Shown: piece after piece, positions 18,778-43,258 of the stretch | Layout: each line of letters starts with the position of its first letter | How positions within the stretch are numbered: the first letter of the stretch is position 1 | Origin: Flocculibacter collagenilyticus | Lineage (GTDB): Bacteria > Pseudomonadota > Gammaproteobacteria > Enterobacterales > Alteromonadaceae | DNA: 64,000 bases | Assembly (NCBI RefSeq): GCF_016469335.1 | Contig: NZ_CP059888.1 | Location: 1,674,001-1,738,000, forward strand | Direction: 5' to 3' | The notes under the pieces: model-generated | What the model saw: only the letters and a program-made list of their open reading frames with translations | Database searches by the model: none | Told to the model about the DNA's origin: nothing | Made by a program: the position numbers and the translations under genes

Positions 18778-19155
18778 ATGAATATAAATACTAATACGCG
18801 CACTATCTCGCTCACATCGTTACTGCTCTTATTAATGGCTATGTTCTTTATTTCAGGTTGTGGCCCGAAACCGTGGGATGAACCACCTATTCATGAAGCC
18901 GCTAAACGTGGCGATTTGGAAGAAGTAAAAGCCCTGCTAAATGCTGGAGTTGATCCTAACCTAAATAACAATGAAGGCGCTACGCCGTTGCACTGGGCTG
19001 CATTCAAAGGGCATGTTGACGTAGCTAAGCTATTAATATCTCGCGGCGCTAAGGTGAACGCCGTAACAAAAAAGGGGTCAACACCGTTGCGCCTAGCAAC
19101 AACTCACAAACAAGAAAAGATGATTAAGTATTTACGATCTAAAGGGGGTCGATAG
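18778..19155 (+). CDS. Ankyrin-repeat lipoprotein
   Basis: 125 residues. A signal peptide ends with the lipobox FISGC (Cys about residue 28). The mature part is almost entirely ankyrin repeats: EPPIHEAAKRGDLEEVKALL, ATPLHWAAFKGHVDVAKLL and STPLRLATTHKQEKMIKYL, about three 33-residue units each closing with AGVDPNLNNN or RGAKVNAVTK. It is probably a lipid-anchored periplasmic protein-protein interaction module. The target is unknown. It is followed by 287 bp of AT-rich sequence in which I see no gene. Confidence 0.85.
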   Translation: MNINTNTRTISLTSLLLLLMAMFFISGCGPKPWDEPPIHEAAKRGDLEEVKALLNAGVDPNLNNNEGATPLHWAAFKGHVDVAKLLISRGAKVNAVTKKGSTPLRLATTHKQEKMIKYLRSKGGR

Positions 19156-19708: not shown

Positions 19709-20072
19709 TGAATCGGATAGTCGTTATCATCATTTTTACATTTTTCTCTTGTGTAGCTGTGGCTGACAAAGCTGATGATCATAAAATGATAAAAAATGCA
19801 GTGCTTGATTACATTGAGTCTCAACAGAACGTTAAACCGGATCAAATGAGGCGAGGTTTAGACAAGAAATTAGTAAAAAAGGTGATAAATTTCTTTTATC
19901 TCCAAAGGTTGATATAGATATTTTAGATATAGATAACCGTGTAGCATCTGTAAAATTAACGGTCGACGAGTGGATTGATTACATGCACTTGTACAAGAAT
20001 GAAAACAGTGAATGGAAGATTATTAATGTATTATGGCAATTTCATGATACGAGTAAACATACGAGTAATTAA
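19709..20072 (+). pseudogene. Frameshifted NTF2-like (lumazine-binding/SnoaL-type) secreted protein
   Basis: ATG 19709 with AAGGA upstream opens a signal peptide (IVVIIIFTFFSCVAVADK) and a helix HKMIKNAVLDYIES typical of the NTF2-like lumazine-binding family. The frame then breaks in an A6 run near 19869-19880 and closes at 19917. The next frame continues without stops to 20072 with DKFLLSPKVDIDI, VASVKLTVDEW, and the family ending SEWKIINVLWQFH. One extra A would restore about 121 codons. It could be a real inactivation, a sequencing error in the homopolymer, or slippage-dependent expression. Confidence 0.75.
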
Positions 20073-20344
20073 TAAGTACTTTGTAATAAAATTGAAAAAT
20101 ATGTAGACATTCAAACATTACTTGGTTAATTTTTATGCGCTACGTACTTATATCAGTACCTAAATTTTGTAGTTGGTATATCTTCAGAATACAGTCTGGA
20201 ATTTGATAGCTGTTTTGTGCATTGCAGAAATAGATGCCTAGCATCTAAATACCAATTAACTTTTCTTCCTGAACAAACTATCAGTGAAGTACGATACATA
20301 TTTAAGTTAATTGGATATCTTAATCATATTTAAGGAAATCTATA

Positions 20345-20515
20345 ATGAAAAAGCAAACAGAAAATAAGTTATTCGCATTTAAATTAGCAGAAAAAAAAGA
20401 CGCTAAAGAAACTAAGAAATGGCAAGCGCGTGATGGTGTAGCAACCGCTGGCTGCTCTGGTATGTGGGCACGCGGTCCATCTCGTTGGGGTAGCGATACT
20501 GGAATGTATTGTTAA
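20345..20515 (+). CDS. RiPP precursor peptide 1 (ATP-grasp cluster)
   Basis: 56 codons from ATG 20345 with AAGGAAATC 7 bases upstream. The N-terminal leader is Lys/Glu-rich (MKKQTENKLFAFKLAEKK) and shares ENKLFAFK and KKWQAR with the second peptide. The C-terminal ~20 residues form the putative core: AGCSGMWARG, then PSRWGSDTGMYC, with Cys37, Ser38, Trp41, Arg43, Asp51 and the C-terminal Cys56 conserved between the two peptides. No signal sequence is present. The size, a leader conserved better than the core, the two conserved cysteines and the ATP-grasp, protease and exporter genes downstream all support a ribosomally made, modified peptide. Confidence 0.8.
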   Translation: MKKQTENKLFAFKLAEKKDAKETKKWQARDGVATAGCSGMWARGPSRWGSDTGMYC

Positions 20516-20630
20516 TTTTGCAACAATTTTTAACGCTCTAACTTTTACAAGTCGTACATATTCCCTGTCTTTTTAAGAAGGTTGAGGTATTAACTGATTT
20601 GTAATTATTAGATGGTTACTTTTTTATAAA

Positions 20631-20657
20631 AGCTCTGATAATTCAGGGCTTTTTTTG
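20631..20657 (+). terminator. Terminator after precursor gene 1
   Basis: AGCTCTGA (20631-20638), TAAT loop, TCAGGGCT (20643-20650), then seven T. An 8-bp stem with one G-U pair. The rest of the 405-bp gap 20516-20920 between the two precursor genes is AT-rich with no gene recognised; a promoter for the second precursor is expected there but I cannot fix one with confidence. Confidence 0.85.
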
Positions 20658-20920
20658 TGTCTATGAACTGTAAAAGAAGTTTATATGATATTCCTTTTTG
20701 TTATTAAAAAAATTTAACCTAGATCATAATAATGTAACTGAATGGTAAATCATAGCTGGACGGTGACGCTTTATTTGGTTAAGTTGTGTTCACGCAGTAC
20801 TCATATCGTGGACAAATGTTCATAATAAAAATCTGTTGTTCATACAATGATAGTAGTTTTGTACTTTGCTGGAAGCAGATGTTTAGTCATCTAAATTAAT
20901 AACAAAGAAGGAAATTTACA

Positions 20921-21094
20921 ATGAAAAAGCAAAACGAAAATAAGTTATTCGCATTCAAAGTTGCTGATAAAAATAAAGAAACAAAAGAAAAGAAATGGCA
21001 AGCGCGTGAAACCGTTGCTGTTGCTGGCTGTTCAGGCCCTTGGACTAGAGCAGACCGTCGTCGTGGCGGTGATGACCAAGGTATGTGGTGCTAA
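20921..21094 (+). CDS. RiPP precursor peptide 2 (ATP-grasp cluster)
   Basis: 57 codons from ATG 20921, preceded by AAGAAGGAAATT as ribosome site. The leader MKKQNENKLFAFKVADKN is nearly the same as in peptide 1, also at DNA level, indicating duplication. KKWQAR precedes the core AVAGCSGPWTRADRRRGG, which ends DDQGMWC. Relative to peptide 1 the core keeps Cys37-Ser-Gly, Trp41, Arg43, one Asp, Gly-Met-aromatic and the terminal Cys, while the middle differs. Such conserved-leader, variable-core pairs are typical of RiPP families. It ends 62 bases before the ATP-grasp gene, with a terminator between. Confidence 0.82.
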   Translation: MKKQNENKLFAFKVADKNKETKEKKWQARETVAVAGCSGPWTRADRRRGGDDQGMWC

Positions 21095-21119
21095 TAGACC
21101 AGTTATAGATTATTTTAAA

Positions 21120-21143
21120 GCCTCACGTTAGTTGAGGCTTTTT
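21120..21143 (+). terminator. Terminator/attenuator between precursor 2 and the enzymes
   Basis: GCCTCA (21120-21125), a 7-base loop, TGAGGC (21133-21138) and five T, ending 13 bases before the ATP-grasp start. Read-through of this modest 6-bp stem would give much less enzyme than precursor mRNA, a common design in RiPP operons. Confidence 0.8.
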
Positions 21144-21156
21144 CTTTGGAAGTGAT

Positions 21157-22173
21157 ATGACCAACACCATTCTTATAATAACAAATAGTCACGATCTTCA
21201 TGCAGATTTAGTTACTAAGGTTATCGATAGAAAACAACACCCTTATTTTAGAATTAACCTCAATCAATTTCCTCGAGATTATCAAATTACTCATTCATAT
21301 ATTAATGGTGAAATGAGTGGAAATATTATTCATTTACCATCTGGACAATGCGCCACACTACAAAACATAAGCGCTGTTTGGATGCGTAAACCAGCAGATT
21401 ATTCGTATTTAAGTGACGATTTGTCACCGCAAGAACGTGCTTTTGCAGCGCAAGAAGTAGAGCAAACTTTATTTGGTTGGATATATTCGCTGGACTGTTT
21501 TTGGATGAGTCACCCGTTAAATATGCGCTCAGCGATGTGGAAAGGCGAGCAACTTAAACGTGCGCTCGGCTTTGGTTTCACAGTACCCGACTCTTTAATA
21601 ACGAATTATCCTGATGATGTTATATCACTTAATAAAAGCAGCACCAGTGGCATAATTTTTAAAACATTATCAACACCAACCTTAGCCGCTGAAAATGTAC
21701 AAGATGAAGAGGTGATTGCCGATAACTTGCCAACAACTATGGTCACGCCAGACATGCTGGACAATATAGAGTCGGTTAAAGAGCTACCTTGTCATTTTCA
21801 GGCCTACGTAGATAAAGAATATGAATTGAGAGTGACTGTGATTGGCCAACAAATATTTGCGGCTAAGATTGACTCGCAAAGTGATGAACGCACTAAAGTC
21901 GATAGTAGAGACATGTCGGCGGAAATTGGTTATTCAGCTATCACTCTTCCAGAAGATATTCAGGAAAAATGCCTAAAATTTGTTGCTAGTTATCAGCTAA
22001 ATTACAGTGCGTTAGATATTTTAGTTAACAAAAAAGGGGAGTATGTATTTTTAGAAAACAATCCCAATGGCCAGTTTTTATATATTGAACAACTAGTGCC
22101 AGAGCTATCGATGTTAGAAGCCGTAGCTGATACATTAATTAAGGAAGCAAAATGTCATCACAAGCATGTGTAA
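21157..22173 (+). CDS. MvdD-like ATP-grasp peptide ligase
   Basis: 338 residues, cytosolic. The N-terminal pre-ATP-grasp part has ILIITNSHDLHADLV, then PYFRINLNQFPRDY and SAVWMRKPADY, the layout of MvdC/MvdD graspetide ligases. The central and C-terminal ATP-grasp fold shows FKTLSTP, FQAYVDKEYELRVTVIG with the metal-ligand Arg, FAAKIDSQ, and the final LNYSALDILVNKKGEY with VFLENNPNGQFLYIE (Asp, Glu and Asn that coordinate Mg-ATP). Known relatives join Ser/Thr or Lys side chains to Asp/Glu in peptide cores. Here Ser38 and the conserved Asp near the C-terminus of each core are the only pair conserved in both. The stop overlaps the protease gene by 22 bases. Confidence 0.85.
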   Translation: MTNTILIITNSHDLHADLVTKVIDRKQHPYFRINLNQFPRDYQITHSYINGEMSGNIIHLPSGQCATLQNISAVWMRKPADYSYLSDDLSPQERAFAAQEVEQTLFGWIYSLDCFWMSHPLNMRSAMWKGEQLKRALGFGFTVPDSLITNYPDDVISLNKSSTSGIIFKTLSTPTLAAENVQDEEVIADNLPTTMVTPDMLDNIESVKELPCHFQAYVDKEYELRVTVIGQQIFAAKIDSQSDERTKVDSRDMSAEIGYSAITLPEDIQEKCLKFVASYQLNYSALDILVNKKGEYVFLENNPNGQFLYIEQLVPELSMLEAVADTLIKEAKCHHKHV

Positions 22174-23039
22174 TGTCTTCACTACATCATGAAATAGAGT
22201 GTTTGGAAGGGCAACGCAACTCTACTGTTATAGTATTGTCGGCGTCGCATCTGGATATTGAGTTGTTACCAACGTTGTACAATTGTTTAAGGTCGATTGG
22301 CCATGTACCACGGCTAGATGTGGTGTTACAGTCTCGGGGAGGGGTTGTTAATGCAGCCAGACGTATAGGGCTGTTGCTCCGAAAATTTACCGATCATTTA
22401 GGTATTATAGTGCCATATCAGTGCGAGTCTTCAGCGACTATTTTATCGTTAGCCGCAAACGAAATTATTGCCGGTGATTTAGCTATATTTTCTCCCATTG
22501 ACCCCAATTTAAACGGCGCAGATGCTGAAGGGCAAGAATCAGCTATGTCTAGCATGGACATTAAAGAATTCGGCAAAATGTGTGAAGATTGGTTTAATGT
22601 AGATAGCCAAGAGGCGAAAGAGCAATCACTTTCATTATTATGCAATAGCATATTTCCGCCTAACCTTACTGCCTTTTATCGCACAACACAGGAAGTAAAG
22701 AAAATAGCGGAAGAATTACTTACATTTCAACTACCAAACCTAGCCCGTGAACAGAGAATTGAAATTATTAATCAATTAATGTTTGGTTACCATTCTCATA
22801 GTTTTGCTCTTACAAAAGAGGAAATGCAGCATTTAGGCCTGAATATTGTGACAGATGAACAAGTGGAGACGATAGCATGGAAAATCTCTGAACATCTTCA
22901 GCAAATAGTGGGTGGTGGTTTGCGAACAAGCATTGAGCAACCTTGGAATGATGCATTACTAGCAACAATACACGAATGTAAAATAAGACAAAATAATAGT
23001 CATGGCTTTATGCCCATATGGAAAGAGCTGGATGTGTGA
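22152..23039 (+). CDS. SDH-type Clp-fold serine protease, probable leader peptidase
   Basis: 295 residues. Start at ATG 22152 with AAGGA 6 bases upstream; ATG 22173 is an alternative in a TAATG coupling. No signal peptide. The crotonase/Clp fold is visible: VVLQSRGGVVNAARRIG as oxyanion-side glycine loop, then YQCESSATILSLAANEI, where a Ser in ESS is in the position of the SppA/SDH nucleophile, and FSPIDPNL after it. It matches the serine dehydrogenase proteinase (S49-like) group. The ABC exporter of this cluster has no C39 domain, so this enzyme is the natural candidate for removing the leader in the cytosol (inference). Ends in a TGATG overlap with the next gene. Confidence 0.8.
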   Translation: MSSQACVMSSLHHEIECLEGQRNSTVIVLSASHLDIELLPTLYNCLRSIGHVPRLDVVLQSRGGVVNAARRIGLLLRKFTDHLGIIVPYQCESSATILSLAANEIIAGDLAIFSPIDPNLNGADAEGQESAMSSMDIKEFGKMCEDWFNVDSQEAKEQSLSLLCNSIFPPNLTAFYRTTQEVKKIAEELLTFQLPNLAREQRIEIINQLMFGYHSHSFALTKEEMQHLGLNIVTDEQVETIAWKISEHLQQIVGGGLRTSIEQPWNDALLATIHECKIRQNNSHGFMPIWKELDV

Positions 23040-23578
23040 TGACCATTTATCTTCTAGAAATTATTAGACTATTTATAGGTTTTGTTTTAGTTGCTGGGGC
23101 GTTAGGTAAGTATTCGGTATTTGATCAGTTTGTTACTGGAACTGCTGAAGCGCTAGGAGTAAGCCTAAAAGCAGTAAAATTTGTTGCCCCGATAGTTATT
23201 TTGTGTGAAGCGGCAATCGGTGGTTCGCTAGTTTTCAAATTGATATCTCCTTACTTATTAATGTGGGCGGCGTTAACGTTATTTGTCATTTTTACTGGGC
23301 TAATTATCTATTGGCTTATGCAAAATGCTGTTATTAGCTGCCATTGCTTTGGCGAAGCGCCACAACCTTTAACATTCTGGGATTTACTCAGAAACATTTT
23401 ATTGTTGGTAAGTATTGGTTATTTTTTATTACAGCCTCAAGCTGTGGCAGAGCTAGACACCATTTCGCTGCTTCTTGCTGGTGGGGTAGCCATGATTTTA
23501 ACATTAGTTATCATCAACTTTAGCCAGTTAGTGGTAATGAAGAATACGTTTTCAGAAGGGGCGTATCGTGTCGAATGA
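23039..23578 (+). CDS. MauE/DoxX-like membrane redox protein
   Basis: 179 residues from ATG 23039, overlapping the previous stop (TGATG). Four to five hydrophobic helices are visible (IIRLFIGFVLVAGALGKY, APIVILCEAAIGGSLVF, LMWAALTLFVIFTGLIIYW, then two C-terminal). The short loop ISCHCFGEAP carries the CxCFG motif typical of MauE and DoxX-related proteins. In methylamine dehydrogenase maturation MauE works with the thioredoxin-like MauD to handle disulfides of the small subunit. The same pairing is seen here with the next gene, so a role with the two conserved core cysteines is suggested. Confidence 0.8.
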   Translation: MTIYLLEIIRLFIGFVLVAGALGKYSVFDQFVTGTAEALGVSLKAVKFVAPIVILCEAAIGGSLVFKLISPYLLMWAALTLFVIFTGLIIYWLMQNAVISCHCFGEAPQPLTFWDLLRNILLLVSIGYFLLQPQAVAELDTISLLLAGGVAMILTLVIINFSQLVVMKNTFSEGAYRVE

Positions 23579-24140
23579 GTTTATTGGCATTATCTTAATC
23601 GTGTTAACCGCTAGCGCAATTTTAAACTTTGTACTTATTTTGACGCTATTTAAGATTATTAGGAAGTACGTTAATTTAACGCCACCACTGCTGAATATCG
23701 ATGAAGGTCAAGAGCTTCCCAATATACAAGCTTATTACTTAAGCAGTAAAAAGCCTGAAATTTTAACCTCGCAAAAGCAGGCGACAGCGTTGGTATTTTT
23801 GATGAGTAACTGCCCTAAGTGTCAGTCTAAAATTGCGGAGTTAGAATCTGTATTGTCAGTGGCACCGGTTGCAGGTGTAAAGCTGTTTTTTATTACGCAT
23901 GAACGTACAAGAAAGATAGAACAATTTCTTGGTAAAAGTGCGCTAAAAGCGGTAACACTTAAAGTAACAAAAAAAGCATACTTACAATTAAACCCTTCTC
24001 AGGCATCACCATTTTATATATTTGTAGATCACCAAGCCCAATTACAAACTGCTGGGATGATTGGTGATGAAAACTGGCAAGGTTTTATTGAGCAGATAAA
24101 TGATATTAAAACGGACGCTGACATCAGTTTGGCCTCCTAA
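23568..24140 (+). CDS. MauD-like membrane-anchored thioredoxin-fold protein
   Basis: 190 residues from GTG 23568, overlapping the MauE-like gene by 11 bases. One N-terminal membrane helix (IIGIILIVLTASAILNFVLI region) anchors a thioredoxin-like domain. The redox motif CPKC follows ALVFLMSN (about residue 83), and the cis-Pro region is ASPFYIFVDHQ. Domain order and neighbour resemble MauD. It probably exchanges electrons or disulfides with the MauE-like partner at the membrane. The substrate is inferred to be the cysteine-containing peptides; a role in general redox balance cannot be excluded. Confidence 0.8.
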   Translation: MSNEFIGIILIVLTASAILNFVLILTLFKIIRKYVNLTPPLLNIDEGQELPNIQAYYLSSKKPEILTSQKQATALVFLMSNCPKCQSKIAELESVLSVAPVAGVKLFFITHERTRKIEQFLGKSALKAVTLKVTKKAYLQLNPSQASPFYIFVDHQAQLQTAGMIGDENWQGFIEQINDIKTDADISLAS

Positions 24141-24155
24141 ATAGGGATTATACGA

Positions 24156-25955
24156 ATGGAAAACGCATCGGATACGGTAGCGATTAATGATAAAGCCGGC
24201 AAAAATAGTGCTCATTTTTCGCGCTTGGGCTTAGTTAAAGAATTTGCTCCGCGCTTACTTTTAGGGCTGTGTATCATGGCGTTAACAGTTGCACTACAAC
24301 TTGCTTTCCCAAAGGCCATTTCGTATTTTATTGATAACGTTCAGCAGGTACATCAACCTTCTTGGTACTATACCTTTGCCATTGCAGCCCTAGTGGCGTT
24401 AATCATTCATTCTGTAGCAACGGCCCTTAGGTATTATTTATTTGAGACTGCTGGCTTGCTCATCGTGACTAAAGTTCGACGAATTCTACATTTTGCTTTA
24501 ATTAATCAACCCATCGCATTTTACGATAAACACAATATCGGTGAATTGACTAATCGCTTATCTAACGATGTCGATATGCTGCAAGATACACTGACTATGG
24601 GTTTAGCTATTTCGTTACGTTCATTACTTGTGTTTATTGGCAGCATAGTGATGTTGGTGATGATTTCCCCTTTGATGTGTATAACACTGTTGGTTTTAGT
24701 GCCAGCGAGCTTTTATGCGGGAAAGTGGGTTGGCGATAAAATTCAGACAAAGTCTAAAAACATTCAGCATATACAGGCAATGTGCTCGAAAGTGGCTCAC
24801 GAAAATTTTTCAAATATCAAATTAGTCCATGCCTTTAATAAGCAAAATAAAGCGAAGTCGCTTTATATGGACGAAACAGAAAACGCTTATCAAACAAATG
24901 TAGGGTATACCGCTTTTATTGCAAAATTTCAGGGTGCTACGTCTTTTATTTTATATTTAACTTTACTGATAACGCTGCTTATTGGTGCAAACTTAATCGC
25001 AAAAGGTTCAATCACGATTGGTGAATTGACCAGTTTTGTGATTTACGCGGGCATGCTAACTAGCTCGGTTAGTGCAATTAGTGACTTTTGGAGTGACTGG
25101 ATGCGCGCTATGGGAGCCACCGATCGCATTTTCGAGATAATAGAGGATGCAGATGTAGAAAAAAATAAAATAAGAAATGTAGATGTAAAAAGTGATGAGC
25201 TCTCAGGGGCAATTCAATTTAATAATGTGGCCTTTAGTTACCCAGAAAGGCCAGCACAATATGCGTTAAAGGATATTAGCTTAATCATTGCGCCAGGAGA
25301 AAAAGTTGCGCTGATTGGGCCTTCAGGGGCAGGAAAATCAACTATAGCAAGTTTGCTGTTAGGCTATTATCAAGCAAATAGTGGCAGCATTACTTTTGAT
25401 GGTAAAAGTTACCCCGATTTAACTGTGAATACTATTCGTGGTAACACTGCAATTGTTGAGCAAGAACCTTCATTATTTTGCACAAGCATTTTAGATAACA
25501 TTGCTTATGGGGCAAAAGCTAAGACAGCGACAGAGCAAGAGGTGATTCAAGCAGCGAAAAAAGCAAATGCGCATGATTTTATTATGAGTTTCCCTGAGCA
25601 ATATAACACGTTAGTTGGCGACCGTGGTGTGCAGCTATCTGGTGGTCAAAAACAGCGTATCGCAATAGCGCGAGCATTGTTAAGAGATCCTAAAATTCTC
25701 ATTTTAGATGAAGCAACCAGCGCATTAGATTCTGTTAGTGAACGTCAAGTTCAAGGTGCATTAGATAATCTCATGCAAGGTAGAACTACAGTTATGATTG
25801 CACACCGATATTCTACAATTGCAAAAGCTGATAAGGTATTCATTATTAATAACGGTGAAATTGTAGAGCAGGGTACTCATCATGAATTAAGCATGAGTAA
25901 AAATAGCTTTTATACTGAACTGGTTGAGTCACAAAAAATCTCGGAAGCAAGTTAA
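24156..25955 (+). CDS. ABC exporter (ABCB type) of the peptide cluster
   Basis: 599 residues, a half-transporter with six-helix membrane domain (about 35-325) fused to a nucleotide-binding domain. Visible motifs are Walker A GPSGAGKST, Q-loop VEQEPSLF, signature LSGGQKQRIAIARALL, Walker B ILILDEATSALD and the H-loop AHRYST. There is no N-terminal C39 peptidase domain, so the leader must be cut by another enzyme. Sequence type is that of lipid/peptide multidrug exporters (MsbA/TAP-like). It is the last gene of the cluster, 15 bases after the thioredoxin-like gene, and most likely exports the mature peptides. Confidence 0.9.
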   Translation: MENASDTVAINDKAGKNSAHFSRLGLVKEFAPRLLLGLCIMALTVALQLAFPKAISYFIDNVQQVHQPSWYYTFAIAALVALIIHSVATALRYYLFETAGLLIVTKVRRILHFALINQPIAFYDKHNIGELTNRLSNDVDMLQDTLTMGLAISLRSLLVFIGSIVMLVMISPLMCITLLVLVPASFYAGKWVGDKIQTKSKNIQHIQAMCSKVAHENFSNIKLVHAFNKQNKAKSLYMDETENAYQTNVGYTAFIAKFQGATSFILYLTLLITLLIGANLIAKGSITIGELTSFVIYAGMLTSSVSAISDFWSDWMRAMGATDRIFEIIEDADVEKNKIRNVDVKSDELSGAIQFNNVAFSYPERPAQYALKDISLIIAPGEKVALIGPSGAGKSTIASLLLGYYQANSGSITFDGKSYPDLTVNTIRGNTAIVEQEPSLFCTSILDNIAYGAKAKTATEQEVIQAAKKANAHDFIMSFPEQYNTLVGDRGVQLSGGQKQRIAIARALLRDPKILILDEATSALDSVSERQVQGALDNLMQGRTTVMIAHRYSTIAKADKVFIINNGEIVEQGTHHELSMSKNSFYTELVESQKISEAS

Positions 25956-41704: not shown

Positions 41705-43258
41705 ATGAAGCTTAAGGTTGTTGCATATTTAATCAAAGAAGGCTACAAAGAAACTGACATAATTAACCGCGATAAAAAAGCTAAGAGAATTGATGTCGAT
41801 ATAAACGGTAAAAGGAACAGTCTTTATATTAAAAGCGCAAGATCTAAGCCTAAGTGGAGTGGAATTTTTACTACTCATCCGAATGTTGATGAGTCCATTT
41901 TTTTCTCTGAGAGTGTATGTGGAATGTTTATAGTAGAAGCGCATGGAAGGTTAATTGCTTTTACATTTGGGCATGCTAAGTCACTGCTATTACCAGTCGT
42001 CATTCAACGTGGTTTCGGCTTAAGGGTATCACTGAACCTTGGCGACTCAGAACAAATTAAATCAATCGATAAGGCTACACTGAATAAAGTTGCCCTGAAG
42101 ACTCGCTCTCAAACCTCTAAAAATACAAATGTCTCAGATTTTGACTTTGAGTTTGACCATGAAATTCTAAAATCAATATCTGCTGTTGTCGAAGCTGATC
42201 ATGATGAATTAGAAATTGTGTCTGGTAGCGACTCCGTTTCTCTTTACACAAAAGTTAGTCTCGAAGAGCTACCTCAAATTGCTACAAGAATTATGTCTGC
42301 ATATATGTCAGATAAATATTTACTCAATTATCCGTGGATAGACTTTATTCAACCTGTGACTGACCCTGACACTATCTTCAACCTAAATGATAATATTATT
42401 CATAGGCTAAACTCTCAGAACTATGAGTCGATTTGGATCGCGTGCCCAGAAATTATGGATTATGATGACTTCTCTGGCTTTGTATATACAAAGAGGACAA
42501 AACAAGGTTGCTCGGTATGTATGCACCCTGAACTAGACTTGAAGTCATACGTTAAGGAAACAAAGTTTAAACTGCCTACAAATGTTGAAATATTGAAACG
42601 TAAACAAGTATACGCCTATAACTCCGACGAAGTAGAGGTTAAAGCTTGGTCACTCTTTCGTTGCTTCAATGTGGAGGTCGAGTTAGATGGAGATATCTTT
42701 GTATTAAATGATTCTCAGTGGTACAGACTTGAGAAAAAATTTAGTGATTCGGTAAATGAGTTTTTCAAACGCTTACCTCGATCGACAATTGATTTTCCAC
42801 CATATGGGGCTCTTACTGAGGGCGAGTATTTGAGGAAAATTGCTGACGGTGAAAATTTCGCCCTTTTGGATCAAAAATGGATCTATCCGCAAGGTACAGG
42901 GACTCGCATAGAGTTTTGTGATTTGCTTTCACAATGCGATGCATTTATTCATGTTAAAAAGTACGGAGCCTCTTCGGTATTGAGCCACTTGTTTTCACAA
43001 GCAACAGTAGCAACTGAGCTGTTGTTAAACGATAACACGGTACTCAGTCAGGTTAACTCGTATTTGGATGATACATATTTAAGTGTTGTATTTGATAAAA
43101 ATAAGTCTCCTCGTACCCACCGAGTTGTTCTAGCGATCATGCATAATAAACAGGGCGAAGTACATCTACCATTTTTTTCTAAAGTAAATCTCCGACATCA
43201 TAGTAGAAGGCTACAAAATATGGGATTCACAGTCGAAATCACTAAAATTAACGCATAA
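41705..43258 (+). CDS. TIGR04141/DUF6119 family sporadically distributed protein
   Basis: 517 residues, cytosolic. The layout fits the TIGR04141 (DUF6119) family: N-terminal AYLIKEGYKETDII, SGIFTTHPNVDE, GRLIAFTFGHAKSLL with VIQRGFGLRVSLN, then KTRSQTSKN, and later DGDIFVLNDSQWYRLEKKF and IEFCDLLSQCDAFIHVKKY with SSVLSHLFSQATVATELL. The family is scattered among bacteria, often near restriction or other defence genes, and has no settled biochemical role; the C-terminal half has a restriction-endonuclease-like hint. No methylase or other defence partner is nearby. Probably horizontally acquired. Confidence 0.75.
   Translation: MKLKVVAYLIKEGYKETDIINRDKKAKRIDVDINGKRNSLYIKSARSKPKWSGIFTTHPNVDESIFFSESVCGMFIVEAHGRLIAFTFGHAKSLLLPVVIQRGFGLRVSLNLGDSEQIKSIDKATLNKVALKTRSQTSKNTNVSDFDFEFDHEILKSISAVVEADHDELEIVSGSDSVSLYTKVSLEELPQIATRIMSAYMSDKYLLNYPWIDFIQPVTDPDTIFNLNDNIIHRLNSQNYESIWIACPEIMDYDDFSGFVYTKRTKQGCSVCMHPELDLKSYVKETKFKLPTNVEILKRKQVYAYNSDEVEVKAWSLFRCFNVEVELDGDIFVLNDSQWYRLEKKFSDSVNEFFKRLPRSTIDFPPYGALTEGEYLRKIADGENFALLDQKWIYPQGTGTRIEFCDLLSQCDAFIHVKKYGASSVLSHLFSQATVATELLLNDNTVLSQVNSYLDDTYLSVVFDKNKSPRTHRVVLAIMHNKQGEVHLPFFSKVNLRHHSRRLQNMGFTVEITKINA

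Follow-up and report, generated by a model that had tools for sequence, protein, structure and literature searches.

Graspetides, the ribosomally synthesized and post-translationally modified peptides (RiPPs) of the MvdC/MvdD, CdnC and TgmB ligases, come from small precursors in which a leader precedes a C-terminal core with Ser/Thr plus Asp/Glu residues. In one of their groups, the graspimiditides (group 13; fuscimiditide), nested crosslinks at the loop base give a stem-loop (PMC12291112). MauE has been noted in three candidate RiPP families of Streptomyces proposed by decRiPPter, with MauD also in one of them, near a Cys-rich predicted precursor (PMC7794033). Here we describe a locus at positions 20345-25955 of a 64,000-nucleotide stretch of the Flocculibacter collagenilyticus genome (contig NZ_CP059888.1, positions 1,674,001 to 1,738,000; hereafter the window). 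As a first-pass annotation of the window had stated, two homologous peptides of 56 and 57 residues with matching leaders are followed by five packed genes on the same strand. The locus is a graspetide-type module whose genes are inherited together and whose core holds two cysteines; its product is most likely an ester-plus-disulfide stem-loop peptide.

The locus shares with graspetides the general form of the precursors, the MvdD pre-ATP-grasp domain and ligase homology over nearly the full length. It differs from them in having one invariant donor/acceptor pair together with two invariant Cys, in the SDH/Clp-fold protease and the MauE/thioredoxin pair fixed in the operon, and in ligases that stand on a separate side of a branch from the 23 others compared. 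The stem-loop with nested crosslinks would be common to this system and the graspimiditides, whereas here the five genes include no methyltransferase and a disulfide would provide one of the nested pair of links. The precursors of the decRiPPter MauE families have at least 8 Cys and their hosts are Streptomyces, whereas the present system has precursors with 2 Cys, uses an MvdD-type ligase and occurs in other hosts. With MauD/MauE of methylamine dehydrogenase maturation the locus has in common the gene pair, the CxC of MauE and the CxxC of the thioredoxin, but the thioredoxin protein is well under the MauD model. Finally, among SDH-type serine proteases (PF01972) of the ClpP/SppA fold, three genomic relatives outside the cluster share S93, D117, H216 and GG63-64 with the cluster protease, which is however tied to the cluster, only 20-22% identical to these three and far under the NF047768 cut-off (65.9/250 bits).

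A scan with exact protease peptide patterns over one genome per species (84,980 species) gave 35 further loci. Protease presence in them is by construction, and their number is a lower bound because exact patterns were used. Ligase, protease, MauE and thioredoxin genes follow in the same order in 35/35, one to nine precursors lie upstream in all 35, and an exporter homologue is found downstream in 33. The hosts are named as Massilia, Janthinobacterium, Rugamonas, Pseudoduganella, Undibacterium, Luteimonas, Lysobacter, metagenome-assembled genomes of Lysobacteraceae, Shewanella, Rheinheimera, Idiomarina, Pseudoalteromonas, Kangiella, Bowmanella and Aestuariibacter. The first-pass annotation had made its proposal depend on the conservation of the small open reading frames (ORFs). 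These do not vanish where the genes occur, since precursors are present in 35/35 loci and in 5/5 genomes of the family sample described below.

Whether ligase or precursor occurs without the protease is a question that rests on reciprocal profile searches and a flank survey, not on the 35 loci. Among 394 genomes of the order, the protease profile matched 11, of which 8 strongly (at least 316.9 bits; next 77.6), and the ligase profile matched 16, again 8 strongly (at least 443.8 bits; next 207.8); the 8 strong genomes are identical. In the family sample of 196 genomes the protease profile matched 8, five of them strongly (at least 206.9 bits; next 49.8), and the precursor profile found exactly the same five. 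In the class search (369 genomes) there were ATP-grasp matches in 8 genomes besides the host, the best at 204 bits and none of this type, and in the phylum sample the window's own genome was the only one of 398 with the system. With 8/394 genomes in the order and 1/398 in the phylum, the system is rare. Eight of 29 surveyed ATP-grasp loci are of this type, and all eight have precursor and protease adjoining. In the flanks of the other 21 (two of which, L064 and L072, overlap), up to 1.5 kb on each side, nothing matched the precursor, the protease, MauE or the thioredoxin at E 0.01; the survey covered less than 1.5 kb per side in L071 and L089. Moreover, when loci are compared in pairs, the distances of the four proteins are correlated (0.87-0.91), and none of 999 permutations reached such a value, which is what joint inheritance of the module would give.

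When the ORFs that flank the cluster in the named loci were grouped with a crude filter, the resulting groups resembled shadow ORFs by eye, and we therefore claim no extra cluster member. In an empty-site test, 15 of 25 relatives, one of the 15 being the host itself, carry the ketoacyl synthase gene that lies downstream here. In the other 14, every further flanking gene tried is missing from the 1.5 kb around it, so no insertion site can be read.

We collected 82 precursors, of which 81 differ from one another after trimming and which contain 67 distinct cores; they are not phylogenetically independent. Every one of them has the core C-[S/T]-x(9-19)-[D/E]-x-G-x-x-C, with Gly at core position −4, and exactly two Cys, none in the leader; four have an extra final Ala beyond the last Cys. 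Position 2 is Ser in 39 and Thr in 43, and position −6 is Asp in 81 and Glu in one. This free exchange of Ser and Thr together with the single Asp to Glu change fits an ester donor and acceptor. Position 2 is the sole Ser/Thr/Lys in 9 of the 67 distinct cores, and position −6 the sole acidic residue in 3. All 82 thus combine a conserved leader with a core holding Ser/Thr and Asp/Glu, as graspetide precursors do. The core had been annotated as of the CxS type with two conserved Cys; the Cys are confirmed, but C-[S/T] is directly adjacent (AGCS / AGCT).

At a fixed distance before the core stands the stretch [W/F]-[K/Q]-x-R-x-x-x-[A/S]-x-A-G. In the 82 precursors its first residue is W in 75 and F in 7, the second K in 63 and Q in 19; R is kept in 75, A/S is A in 71 and S in 11, and Ala-Gly is present in all. 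Further upstream, the leader has FAF in 79/82, the exact LFAFKLAEK in 36/82 and PFAF in 3/82; the helix motif of graspetide leaders is given as Phhx(1,2)h / PFFARFL (PMC8939145). The median dN/dS of the precursors is 0.088 and the ratio is below 1 in 39/39 pairs (same length, 70-97% DNA identity; the pairs are not independent). These ratios, together with the precursor family upstream in all 35 loci, mean that these are not chance small ORFs, an explanation that we reject. One more precursor (L058:8699-8890) was missed by BLASTP and caught by the profile; it lies outside the 82, and its core is preceded by GG, not AG. Nine tandem precursors with diverse loops on one scaffold are present in each of two loci, L035 (6895-8913) and L038 (6897-8913), of Massilia sp. 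BJB1822 and Pseudoduganella violacea.

Regarding the ligase, it matches ATPgraspMvdD (PF21068) at 1.5e-18 and, in NCBIfam, TIGR04187 (GRASP_SAV_5884; 237 bits, 2.3e-70), MvdD (210 bits, 4.4e-62), MvdC (169 bits) and grasp-with-spasm (99 bits). Solved structures matched include CdnC (2.3e-60), AMdnB and chains named ATP grasp ligase. A ligase of the MvdC/MvdD superfamily beside a precursor is the arrangement of a graspetide cluster. Residues D287, E300, N301 and N302 are invariant in 36/36 loci, and we take D287, E300 and N302 to be metal-binding, as in ATP-grasp folds. The annotation had proposed a candidate undescribed RiPP system. We keep its RiPP-type cluster, with an ATP-grasp crosslink and cysteine chemistry as the best reading, and file it as a graspetide subgroup rather than a wholly undescribed class, given the homology of the ligase to the MvdC/MvdD/CdnC/TgmB enzymes.

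In a quick tree that carried a long-branch warning, a single branch separates the 36 system ligases from 23 others, with a Shimodaira-Hasegawa-like approximate likelihood ratio test (SH-aLRT) support of 100. The tree mixes bacterial families, two Rheinheimera ligases standing beside those of Massilia sp. BJB1822 and Pseudoduganella (SH-aLRT 91), and this mixing suggests horizontal spread. A scan of viral contigs with the ligase gave one pattern stretch, and a relative was confirmed in none. The plasmid search gave 79 records, all 79 below 60% identity; among the best 20 of the 79, 17 are named ATP-grasp maturase or MvdC/MvdD and 3 are nameless. Four of the 79, outside these 20, are Alteromonas plasmid records that carry an ATP-grasp relative of the ligase.

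The protease belongs to SDH_protease (PF01972; 2.9e-14, 53.2 bits against a cut-off of 31.3), and its predicted model has a predicted local distance difference test score (pLDDT) of 81.2. S93, D117, H216, G63 and G64 are invariant in 36/36 loci, and S93, D117 and H216 probably form a catalytic triad. Three genomic SDH relatives outside the cluster also carry S93, D117, H216 and GG63-64. The exporter is led by ABC_membrane and ABC_tran, with no C39 among the 20 families listed for it; an exporter with built-in peptidase, of the peptidase-containing ATP-binding cassette (ABC) transporter kind, is rejected on this ground. Downstream of the thioredoxin gene of one Lysobacteraceae locus, L057, there is a GGDEF/MASE1 gene instead of an exporter.

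The MauE-like protein is a clear member of its family (PF07291; 7.1e-19, 68.8 bits, cut-off 27), and C108 and C110 of its CxC are invariant in 36/36 loci, as are C82 and C85 of the thioredoxin protein. By sequence the latter is weak (PF13098, 0.0018, under the cut-off). Its fold is clear from the predicted model (pLDDT 91.3), which has 626 PDB matches at E ≤0.001; FetE comes first, and DsbE-like, ResA and TlpA oxidoreductases are mixed with peroxiredoxins. Against the MauD model TIGR02661 it reaches 18.3/188.6 bits and is not assigned to MauD; for the same reason methylamine dehydrogenase maturation is rejected. A second MauE-domain protein is encoded elsewhere in the host genome (C1:3822483-3822857, L117).

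What we observe are gene order, conservation, co-occurrence, intact active-site residues and the precursor pattern; the chemical steps, their order and the use of the product are reconstructed from these. In the scheme that we propose, the ATP-grasp ligase would bind the leader helix around K-L-F-A-F-K-L-A-E-K, phosphorylate the invariant Asp/Glu six residues from the core end and close one ester with the Ser/Thr at core position 2, giving a ring whose variable loop has 9-19 residues. The thioredoxin-fold and MauE-like proteins would work as a redox pair and link the first core Cys to the last, so that ester and disulfide are nested as a clamp at the loop base. The SDH/Clp-fold protease would recognise the conserved stretch before the core and cut after Ala-Gly, leaving an N-terminal Cys, and the ABC exporter, without a peptidase domain, would export the peptide. 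We infer the disulfide, the SDH-type leader cleavage and the export from the anatomy of the locus. A graspetide-type cluster whose product holds a single Ser/Thr-Asp ester enclosed by a Cys-Cys disulfide, with Clp-fold leader cleavage and export, has, in our estimate, about an even chance of being correct in full.

Several observations weigh against this scheme, and part of them favour other explanations. The ligase is under the cut-offs of all four matching NCBIfam models (237/350, 210/475, 169/425 and 99/230 bits). Further acidic residues are present in 64 of the 67 distinct cores and Lys in 10, so other or further crosslinks are possible. One such possibility is that the ligase makes a thioester or amide of Cys1, e.g. 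a Cys1-Asp thioester that would rearrange to the N-terminal amine after leader removal. Cys1 is invariant in 82/82 precursors, and ester-forming ATP-grasp enzymes can yield thioesters on changed substrates, a thioester to amide shift being possible (PMC12291112). However, a Cys1 bond does not explain why position 2 is Ser/Thr only (82/82), leaves the last Cys unpaired and does not need the redox pair; we consider it highly improbable. The predicted position of the redox sites also speaks against the scheme. Lys and Arg are more numerous after than before the thioredoxin membrane segment in 35/36 loci, with one tie, and more numerous on the set of MauE loops that holds the CxC in 36/36, where the topology is a charge count and the MauE membrane segments were set by hydropathy of the window protein alone. 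This positive-inside bias predicts that both redox sites face the cytoplasm, an odd place for disulfide formation, and weighs against a simple periplasmic oxidase. Instead, the redox pair could hold the Cys of a graspetide in reduced form in the cytoplasm, or repair mispairing there, up to ester closure, and general periplasmic machinery would form the disulfide later, outside. The matches of the thioredoxin fold, with FetE, DsbE-like, ResA and TlpA beside peroxiredoxins, are consistent with such a role, but it rests on charge counts, and MauE has been speculated to form disulfides (PMC7794033). We regard it as rather doubtful.

The protease and exporter parts of the scheme meet objections of their own. 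The best match of the protease model to SppA/ClpP chains has E 2.3e-5 with a query template modelling score (TM) of about 0.3-0.4, and no solved structure matches the protease by sequence at E 0.1. One C39 peptidase is encoded elsewhere in the host genome (C1:354363-354767, L115) and could also cut the leader at a small-residue site, and two Lysobacteraceae loci (L057, L058) have no exporter homologue nearby. If the leader were removed by that distant C39 peptidase or by a general protease, the SDH-type protein might serve in self-protection or as a partner protein. The graspetides characterised by 2022 were protease inhibitors (PMC8939145), and a part in resistance or maturation has been suggested for proteinases encoded next to graspetide genes (PMC13097080). 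Yet the protease is tight in the operon, its S/D/H are invariant, a conserved stretch lies at a fixed distance before the core and the exporter has no peptidase domain, which makes a protective or partner role somewhat improbable. It may also be that the cluster is already catalogued, as a numbered graspetide group of the published similarity networks that was simply not discussed. Groups are numbered up to 43, with neighbouring proteases in 26, 30, 32 and 40, and group 9 has a serine proteinase (PMC13097080). However, group 9 cores cluster with groups 8 and 11 and their leader is linked to an Actinobacterial ligase branch (PMC8939145), which points to group 9 being a different system. Moreover, SDH, Mau, Clp and thioredoxin are absent from the accessible main text of PMC8939145, and Clp, SDH, Mau, thioredoxin, Massilia, Janthinobacterium and Shewanella from that of PMC13097080. 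Earlier cataloguing is a possibility that we keep tentatively. In the opposite direction, a distinct RiPP subclass, in which a fixed six-family module makes a nested ester plus a dedicated disulfide, with a Clp-fold leader peptidase and a cytoplasm-facing MauE/thioredoxin pair that sets the disulfide before export, seems unlikely.

In the literature searched we found no paper joining graspetide and MauE. Judged by title, PMC7794033 is the only one on MauE and ATP-grasp that concerns RiPPs, and among the matches listed for graspetide and disulfide none has this gene set in its title or in the beginning of its abstract. The accessible part of a review of RiPP leader proteases contains no ClpP, SppA, S49, S14 or serine dehydrogenase (PMC10885120). 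The cluster is thus not described in the main texts searched, in so far as these were accessible; absence from print is not established by this, numbered-group surveys and supplements lying outside the search. If the proposed scheme is true, graspetides are extended to cores with an enzyme-guided disulfide and gain a Clp-fold leader peptidase. With 67 different natural cores built on one scaffold, as many as nine in a single locus, the module is a ready library for the loop tolerance of ligase and protease. It is also a compact setting in which to study the role of MauE/MauD pairs; what MauD does exactly has been called unclear (PMC7794033).

The host genome is 3.97 Mb in one contig; coordinates in the window are collected in Table 1.

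Table 1. Features of the locus, in window coordinates.
Feature	Position	Strand	Remarks
Precursor peptide 1	20345..20515	+	56 aa; core CSGMWARGPSRWGSDTGMYC after ...VATAG
Terminator-like hairpin + T-run, 3' of precursor 1	20628..20653	+	
Precursor peptide 2	20921..21094	+	57 aa; core CSGPWTRADRRRGGDDQGMWC after ...VAVAG
Terminator-like hairpin + T-run, interval between last precursor and ligase	21117..21141	+	
MvdC/MvdD-type ATP-grasp ligase (graspetide synthetase)	21157..22173	+	338 aa
SDH/Clp-fold serine protease	22152..23039	+	295 aa
MauE-like membrane protein, CxCFG	23018..23578	+	start 23018 or 23039
Membrane-anchored thioredoxin-fold protein (MauD-like), CPKC	23568..24140	+	190 aa
ABC exporter, fused permease + ATPase, without C39 peptidase domain	24156..25955	+	599 aa

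From these coordinates the ligase and SDH genes overlap by 22 bp and the MauE and thioredoxin genes by 11 bp, and a gap of 15 bp separates the thioredoxin and ABC genes, all as first annotated. The 1 bp overlap given there for SDH and MauE holds only with the MauE ATG at 23039; with the in-frame start at 23018 it is 22 bp. Relatives are mixed in this respect, L010 matching the short start and L011 the long one. In G+C content the five genes for enzymes and exporter (0.38-0.40) resemble their surroundings, and the precursor stretch (20000-20999) is lower, at 0.307.

Terminator-like hairpins with a T-run are found at 6 sites in the region against 4.7 expected by chance, and the one 3' of precursor 1 is, taken alone, weak evidence. 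Across the loci, a hairpin with a T-run lies within 130 bases past the last precursor in 25/36, against 1.4 expected from mononucleotide shuffles. The hairpin before the ligase gene resembles a leaky terminator, and precursor transcripts may outnumber enzyme transcripts. Promoter-like sites in the region number 21, where chance predicts 20.5.

Elsewhere in the window, a small ankyrin-repeat protein (Ank_2, 2.2e-37) is encoded at 18778-19155, with an N-terminus that by eye resembles a lipoprotein signal, and a near full-length DUF6119 protein (4.3e-130) at 41705-43258.

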